NCBI GenBank assembly: GCA_001563905.1
Contig: LKMO01000001.1
Coordinates: forward strand, 17,286-81,285
DNA from: Nanohaloarchaea archaeon B1-Br10_U2g19
GTDB taxonomy: Archaea > Nanohalarchaeota > Nanosalinia > Nanosalinales > Nanosalinaceae
DNA length: 64,000 nt
Reading direction: 5' to 3'
Below the pieces are notes generated by a model. That model was not told the origin of the DNA and did no database searches. It worked only from the letters and a program-made list of their open reading frames with translations. Shown one piece after another: positions 60,821-62,272 of the stretch. The translations under genes and the position numbers were made by a program. Position 1 is the first letter of the stretch, and each line of letters begins with the position of its first letter.

Positions 60821-61882
60821 TTATTTCATGACTTCAAGTCCTAAGTCGTTTACGTCGCTTACCTCGGTTTCTTGTTCTTCTTCTACTTCGCCAAGGACGT
60901 AAGGTGATTTTACTCCGGTTATAATTGATATCACTTGAAGCTTGCCTTCCAGTTCTTCTCTGACTCTTGCTCCCCAGATTACTTGTGCTTGAGGATCAAG
61001 ATTGTTTTTGACTGACTGGCCTACGGCGTTGATTTCGTTGAGTGTTAGGTCTTGTCCGCCTGCTACGTGTAGAAGTGCTCCGTTTGCACCGTCGAACTCT
61101 ACATCTAGTAGAGGGTTGGATAGTGCTTCATGGATTGCTTCTTCTCCTTTGTTGTTTGTGTCGCTTTCTCCGTATCCTACTACTGCGACGCCTCCTTCGT
61201 TCATGATTGCTTTGACGTCTGCGTAGTCTAGGTTGACAAGGCTTGGTTTGGAGATTGTTTCTGTTACGCCTTTGATCATGGTTGTGATTAGTTCGTCTGC
61301 CACTCCGAATGCTTGGTCTAGTGGCATGTCTCCGGCGATATCTAGTAGTTTGTCGTTTTCGATCACGATTGCGGTGTCTACGTGTTGTCTTAGTTTGTAG
61401 AGTCCTTCTTCTGCTTTACTCATTCTTGCGCCTTCGATTTCGAAAGGCATTGTGACTGTTCCGATTACGATACAGTCTTCTTTTTTAGCTATTTCTGCTA
61501 GAACCGGTGTTACTCCTGTTCCTGTTCCTCCTCCTAGTCCGCATGTTAGGAATACCATGTCTGCGTCTTTGAAGAGGTTGCGGAGTTCTGCACGGTTTTC
61601 TTCTGCTGCTCGTGCTCCTTTTTCTGGATGTCCTCCTGCTCCGAGTCCTTTTGTAAGGTCTCGTCCTACTAGGATTTTTCTATCTGCTGAGGACATTTCT
61701 AGGTGCTGTTTATCTGTGTTGATTACAACTGTTTCTGCGCCTTCTACATCTTTCTTTTGTATACGGGTGACCTGGTTGTTGCCTGCGCCTCCTGCACCGA
61801 CTACCAGGATTTTAGCATCCTTTACGTCGTCCAGATTTTGAACGTCTTTTTTCGATTCTGTATTATTGATTATTGATTCCAT
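60821..61882 (-). CDS. ftsZ: cell division protein FtsZ
   Basis: GAGGAGNNQVTRI; GLGGGTGTGVTPVLAEIAKK tubulin signature. Confidence 0.97.
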   Translation of the reverse strand: MESIINNTESKKDVQNLDDVKDAKILVVGAGGAGNNQVTRIQKKDVEGAETVVINTDKQHLEMSSADRKILVGRDLTKGLGAGGHPEKGARAAEENRAELRNLFKDADMVFLTCGLGGGTGTGVTPVLAEIAKKEDCIVIGTVTMPFEIEGARMSKAEEGLYKLRQHVDTAIVIENDKLLDIAGDMPLDQAFGVADELITTMIKGVTETISKPSLVNLDYADVKAIMNEGGVAVVGYGESDTNNKGEEAIHEALSNPLLDVEFDGANGALLHVAGGQDLTLNEINAVGQSVKNNLDPQAQVIWGARVREELEGKLQVISIITGVKSPYVLGEVEEEQETEVSDVNDLGLEVMK

Positions 61883-61956
61883 TTGAACATCACGGTATCG
61901 TTATGCCTAACTTTTTTAAAGCAGCATATCTAATTCTACCTTAGAATAAACGTAAT

Positions 61957-62083
61957 TTCAAGTCCCAACTTGAATGCCCAAATGTGATTTCGGATTCAAT
62001 GCCCAACATCGAATCCAGTCCGATCGTACTCGCGCCCAAACGAGTGCTGATCAGTAGTCTCGAGTTCATGGCCCAACATGAAC
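61957..62083 (-). promoter_or_regulatory. array of hairpins with common UUGGG(C) loops in the putative ftsZ 5' leader
   Basis: H4 62064-62083, H3 62028-62045, H2 61992-62016, H1 61957-61974; extra loop motif at 61976-61981; TATA-like TTTATAAA at 62122-62129. Confidence 0.75.
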
Positions 62084-62272
62084 ACAAGATTTATGTTATA
62101 TTCTAACCTTTATTTGCCTAGTTTATAAAAGTTTGGCTATTTACCCACAATTTACGCTGTTCACTGAAGACGAACATGTACTGTTCATAACCGTTCACGA
62201 AGACCATTTAATCAGGATATAGCGTTATTTCATATGGTTACAAAAAGCTTCGCTCCAACTTTCAACATAACG

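Follow-up and report, generated by a model that had tools for sequence, protein, structure and literature searches.

Directly 5′ of ftsZ, nanohaloarchaea carry a tandem array of hairpins whose stems are unrelated in sequence and whose loops share a UGG-type core. The array was found at this position in 28 of the 28 nanohaloarchaeal species searched (five families) and in between about half and three quarters of the 70 ftsZ leaders read from a second DPANN phylum. It is real and not a product of chance, and comparison of the leaders establishes at the sequence level that structure, loop, strand and linkage to ftsZ are conserved. The region probably constitutes a cis-acting 5′ leader of the ftsZ mRNA, representing a new family, that would recruit an RNA-binding factor. 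In the window, i.e., the whole 64,000-nucleotide stretch of DNA that was analysed, the minus-strand array has a TTTATAAA box (62129-62122) 5′ of it and the start codon of ftsZ (61882) 3′ of it. Its parts are as follows.

62122..62129, minus strand: distal TATA box TTTATAAA, a TATA-like element 5′ of the array and putative promoter P1 of the leader
62064..62083, minus strand: hairpin 1, GUUCAUG-UUGGGC-CAUGAAC (sequence and fold; in the first hairpin of relatives the stem letters differ and the loop is identical)
62028..62045, minus strand: hairpin 2, ACUCGU-UUGGGC-GCGAGU (sequence, fold and relatives)
61992..62016, minus strand: hairpin 3, GGAUUCGAUG-UUGGG-CAUUGAAUCC (sequence, fold and relatives)
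61976..61982, minus strand: motif 4, UUUGGGC, without a stable stem (sequence; several relatives have an unstemmed UUGGG near here)
61957..61974, minus strand: hairpin 5, UUCAAG-UUGGGA-CUUGAA, a hexaloop (sequence and fold)
61931..61946, minus strand: conserved 3′ element UUCUAAGGUAGAAUUA (UUCUA element), whose distance to the TTTAAAAA box hardly varies among nanohaloarchaea
61902..61928, minus strand: 3′ hairpin UAUGCU...GGCAUA around TTTAAAAA (61920-61913; possible second TATA box, P2) (covariation)
60821..61882, minus strand: ftsZ, the gene downstream of the leader, a 353-aa ORF (ORF and FtsZ homology)

All five UUGGG motifs and the TATA-like box that a first-pass annotation had placed here are present. 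Hairpins 1 to 3 stand as that annotation drew them, and the UUUGGGC copy to which it had ascribed a weak stem has no real stem; its last hairpin, written as UUCAAGU-uggg-ACUUGAA, is better described as the UUGGGA hexaloop of hairpin 5. Unstemmed UUGGG copies around the third or fourth array position occur in the window (61982-61976) and in L028, L034, L037, L038, L042 and L043. The fold check that the annotation had proposed gave −55.2 kcal/mol for the array region, better than all 200 dinucleotide shuffles (z = −4.1). Three findings go beyond that annotation: the array also occurs in a second DPANN phylum, its loops change in concert, and a conserved 3′ element with a possible second TATA box lies next to the start codon.

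Conservation of the array and its linkage to ftsZ

Relatives were gathered by an FtsZ-guided search that yielded 12 named loci and whole-genome matches in every one of the 28 nanohaloarchaeal species. For 27 of these, leaders were read (L026-L052), each with the array and at least two GG-loop hairpins; in the 28th (G007) the array lies beside a partial ftsZ. The first-pass annotation had tied its proposal to conservation in relatives, and such conservation is general among these species. When 121 loop motifs of the 27 leaders were chosen by sequence alone, ignoring stems, a stem of at least five pairs was present at 61%, as opposed to 4.4% with shuffled flanks. GG-loop hairpins of at least six Watson-Crick pairs numbered 49, against 0.3 in dinucleotide shuffles, and a GG loop was found in 49 of the 54 hexaloop hairpins with stems of this length.

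The hairpin arms are devoid of conserved letters, conservation being confined to the loop. With stems selected by their loop only, 62 distinct UUGGGC sites were paired in 62% of cells and reached a covariation score of 0.530, while sliding one arm by one to three columns lowered pairing to 34-41% (maximum 40.6%) and the score to at most 0.228. The same comparison at 63 distinct UUGGCG sites of the second phylum gave 72% of cells paired and a score of 0.649, against at most 0.258 when slid. This covariation of independent stems supports the view, already advanced from the window by itself, that selection acts on both the pairing and the loop.

The gene 5′ of the array is mostly a divergent gatC, replaced by AsnRS in G001 and G002 and by other genes in G004 and G009. 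Since the upstream neighbour varies while the array stays, the array belongs with ftsZ. The arrangement expected of a cis-acting leader, a fixed downstream gene behind a variable upstream gene, is thus found in all 28 nanohaloarchaea and in many second-phylum genomes, the downstream gene always being ftsZ. A search for UUGGG-loop hairpins elsewhere, likewise suggested by the annotation, was carried out in the complete relative G026, where they cluster at ftsZ only; ftsZ is the single one of its 657 genes with more than two. A three-motif pattern run across the 28 nanohaloarchaeal genomes matched solely ftsZ leaders. With all pattern matches at ftsZ and single hairpins elsewhere in G026 at control frequency, a genome-wide family of arrays in nanohaloarchaea was rejected; GGAGGT hairpin repeats in G026 resembled a coding repeat and were set aside. 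Nearly all of the 28 genomes contain two ftsZ genes, about 50% identical, and the few leaders of the paralogous ftsZ that were read (L053-L055) are without the array.

The three-motif pattern was also run on 382 genomes belonging to the same phylum as L014, a ‘Nanoarchaeota’ MAG; it returned many chance matches in coding sequence as well as G104 and G163, each directly 5′ of an ftsZ about 59% identical to that of the window. The 70 second-phylum leaders are the best FtsZ-homology matches to the FtsZ of G104 and hence not a random sample of the phylum; 53 of them contain at least one UGG-loop hairpin (at least four pairs) and 31 at least two, about a quarter having none. Together they hold 39 GG-loop hairpins, compared with 0.8 in shuffles. 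Their commonest hexaloop is UUGGCG (35 copies), which is also the loop of the nanohaloarchaeon G001, other loops being UUGGGC, CUGGAC or UUGGUC. A UUGGCG pattern applied to 58 genomes again retrieved ftsZ leaders (L252-L254), plus chance matches. As an outgroup, 30 Asgard ftsZ upstream regions lack the array and show background only (9 sense, 6 antisense), and nothing systematic was seen in 12 other archaeal and bacterial ftsZ upstream regions.

Two side observations concern further sequences met in these searches. Upstream of ftsZ in L198, L202 and L238, which display no clear UGG-loop array, a GGCUCUCC...GGAGAGCC stem surrounds a C-rich ACCACCCCCCAAACCCACA-type stretch, the CCCAAA of which would pair with UUUGGG. 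Away from ftsZ, nine second-phylum genomes (L169-L177; e.g., L171:2210-2330) carry TTGGGA clusters (TTGGGACTATNTTGGGAATATG) with an 11-nt period and no hairpins. A divergent coiled-coil gene lies on one side of them and a methyltransferase/rpoL-like gene pair on the other, and they are possibly an array of DNA-binding sites.

Strand, promoters and extent of the transcript

UGG-loop hairpins lie almost exclusively on the ftsZ-sense strand, the ratio of sense to antisense being 63:0 in nanohaloarchaea and 50:1 in the second phylum, in agreement with the orientation first proposed. The argument originally offered for that orientation, namely G-U pairs that close only on the minus strand, had to be given up: inside stems, nanohaloarchaea have 9 G-U pairs to 11 A-C mismatches and the second phylum has 3 to 9 (12:20 in total). 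The loop-closing pair alone displays an excess of G-U (15 G-U to 2 A-C), many of these instances being homologous. The stems of array-bearing leaders have at least as many A-C mismatches as G-U pairs, an odd pattern for conserved RNA helices.

A TATA-like element, in most cases TTTATAA, precedes the array in 27 of the 27 nanohaloarchaeal leaders read, and in 14 of the 23 leaders measured the first hairpin begins 38-47 nt past it, which places it roughly 10-20 nt downstream of where transcription should start. The data support a leader that would start at the distal box, as the first-pass annotation had suggested. Further 5′, at 62150-62200 of the window, repeated TGAACRGT / GTTCA half-sites are kept in many nanohaloarchaeal relatives and likely form a transcription-factor operator.

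On the 3′ side, the array is followed by the conserved UUCUA element and by a TATA-like box rich in A and U (TTTAAAAA, with TATAWAWA as the second-phylum form), which usually lies 25-60 nt 5′ of the start codon and may be a second promoter, P2; many second-phylum leaders have a related UUCUAAAAGG-type element 3′ of the array. The whole 3′ structure of nanohaloarchaea covaries (score 0.221 versus at most 0.111 when slid), and in the helix of the 3′ hairpin four of seven pairs change on both sides, with 71% of cells paired. Stems enclosing the TATA-like box are moderately enriched in the 73 leaders tested; RNAalifold, applied to the same 3′ alignment, retained only the UUCUA hairpin and not the box-enclosing stem, which is less certain than the array. 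Paired structure extends almost to the ftsZ start codon. If these 3′ pairs form in RNA, the RNA of the array would run nearly to ftsZ, which makes it a leader.

Strand bias, unconserved arms and, in most leaders measured, the position of the distal promoter before the first hairpin together favour an RNA read in the ftsZ direction. The same strand bias (an asymmetric loop that almost always falls on one strand) renders it highly improbable that the element acts as DNA, either as inverted repeats that extrude or as sites of a DNA-binding protein between two promoters, and arms without conserved letters offer such a protein nothing to read; we keep this alternative at low weight because the lack of G-U preference within stems is not fully explained, and possible TATA boxes do flank the array on both sides. 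The TATA-like element near the start codon raises a different choice, that between a leader and an independent small RNA that would arise from the distal promoter, end before ftsZ and sequester a loop-binding protein in trans, as CsrB does for CsrA, while ftsZ would use its own proximal promoter. Conservation of the TTTAAAAA / TATAWAWA box at a core-promoter-like distance from the start codon, a Shine-Dalgarno-like site that, where present, is downstream of the expected proximal start, and the confinement of the array to one locus, as for a sponge, are all consistent with such an RNA. It nevertheless appears unlikely, as the array remains linked to ftsZ when the gene on its other side differs, the proximal box is spanned by paired structure, and G026 is elsewhere without the clustered or enriched UUGGG-loop hairpins that would serve as mRNA targets of a sponge; stems reaching the proximal element favour the leader. 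Points against the leader itself are that an ftsZ mRNA lacking the array could originate at the proximal box, that G-U does not prevail over A-C inside stems, and that roughly one second-phylum leader in four is without a UGG-loop hairpin.

Loops, candidate ligand and known systems

The ftsZ leader, which would be transcribed from the distal TATA box, has two to six tandem hairpins, the stems of which would serve only to present a UGG-type loop, usually a hexaloop, reading UUGGGC, UUGGCG, GUGGGA, UUGGUC or CUGGAC depending on the lineage; the UUCUA element and then a hairpin beside the start codon follow. Several loops may be bound at once by a single trans-acting factor, most probably a protein that binds RNA, which would control translation or stability/decay of the ftsZ mRNA. 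Loop core identity is much higher within than between leaders (0.66 versus 0.46, and 0.56 versus 0.27), a difference attained in 0 of 2000 permutations. Shared ancestry adds to this concertedness, although joint change of the individual hairpins within a leader is still required. Since the loops of one leader change together despite unrelated stems, the simplest account, which the data suggest, is a single trans-acting ligand that recognises all copies and drifts along with them. The factor could be FtsZ itself or a dedicated regulator, FtsZ being a candidate since, in the one complete genome scanned, the array occurs nowhere but at the ftsZ locus.

Hairpins that passively stabilise the 5′ end of an mRNA, with a loop kept for folding well and not read by any ligand, would suit an array near the expected 5′ end. 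Recurring UUGGG copies without stems and the joint shift of loop letters within a leader speak against this explanation, to which we assign little probability, and we know of no unusually stable loop family with these letters. Two further ideas were dropped: a G-quadruplex built from the GGG runs of the loops, as G001 and most second-phylum loops carry only GG, and anticodon mimicry (UU-GGG-C), as the loops are mainly hexaloops in which other letters occur.

Repeated hairpins with a conserved GG-containing loop are known from CsrA/RsmA sites and the CsrB/RsmY sponge RNAs (PMC7652899), a likeness that the first-pass annotation had itself called formal and that is no more than formal. Both systems present one shared loop motif on several hairpins, but in the ftsZ array UGG is followed by GC, CG, GA, AC or UC, whereas the CsrA motif is GGA. 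The array loops are mainly UUGGGC, UUGGCG, CGGGCA or alike, GGA being found in some lineages only (GUGGGA, UUGGGA, UUGGAC, CUGGAC). The array stems are also longer, CsrA selection having preferred stems of at most four pairs (PMC7652899), and the array fronts one gene and is not a known global regulator. CsrA (PF02599) was detected in none of the 28 nanohaloarchaeal genomes, with E. coli, B. subtilis and T. maritima as positive controls, and was rejected as the ligand.

Smaug elements occur in copies within one mRNA (nanos). The recognition element of Smaug/Vts1, eukaryotic SAM-domain proteins, is a CNGGN0-3 loop on a non-specific stem (PMC4053848), to which the NUGGNN loops of the ftsZ array, equally on non-specific stems, are similar in form; the array differs in being archaeal and in a first loop base that is mostly U or G. 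The SAM_1 domain (PF00536) had no match in the 28 genomes, the control genomes being equally without a match. In haloarchaea, ftsZ transcription is controlled by CdrS, a ribbon-helix-helix protein that binds DNA at promoters (PMC8406309); it shares with the proposed role of the array the control of ftsZ expression in halophilic archaea and differs in acting on promoter DNA instead of a leader RNA. Post-transcriptional control of ftsZ2 by RNA processing is possible (PMC8303175), and ftsZ does not appear in a 104-motif survey (PMC2864571). A leader RNA array of this kind at ftsZ was not found in the freely accessible literature searched. Described riboswitches and leaders represented in Rfam were rejected for lack of a covariance-model match: Rfam 15 gave none in the window and, with E values of up to 5 admitted, none in the leader, and among 31 relatives none reached the gathering score, save one tRNA in L195 outside the leader.

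A wider reading can be offered tentatively: the arrays may form an ancient class of DPANN regulatory RNA whose ligand, FtsZ or a dedicated division regulator, would bind or count a row of identical loops on the ftsZ mRNA and co-evolve with the loop letters. How archaea control the level of FtsZ is poorly understood, and for DPANN symbionts no study of the matter was found. An array conserved across two phyla and outside any Rfam family points to an undescribed, ancient switch on cell division and predicts a UGG-loop-binding factor that regulates division, for the discovery of which the lineage-specific loop classes constitute natural specificity swaps. If this is true, the array would be, within the literature searched, the first described case of cell division controlled by a leader RNA in archaea.
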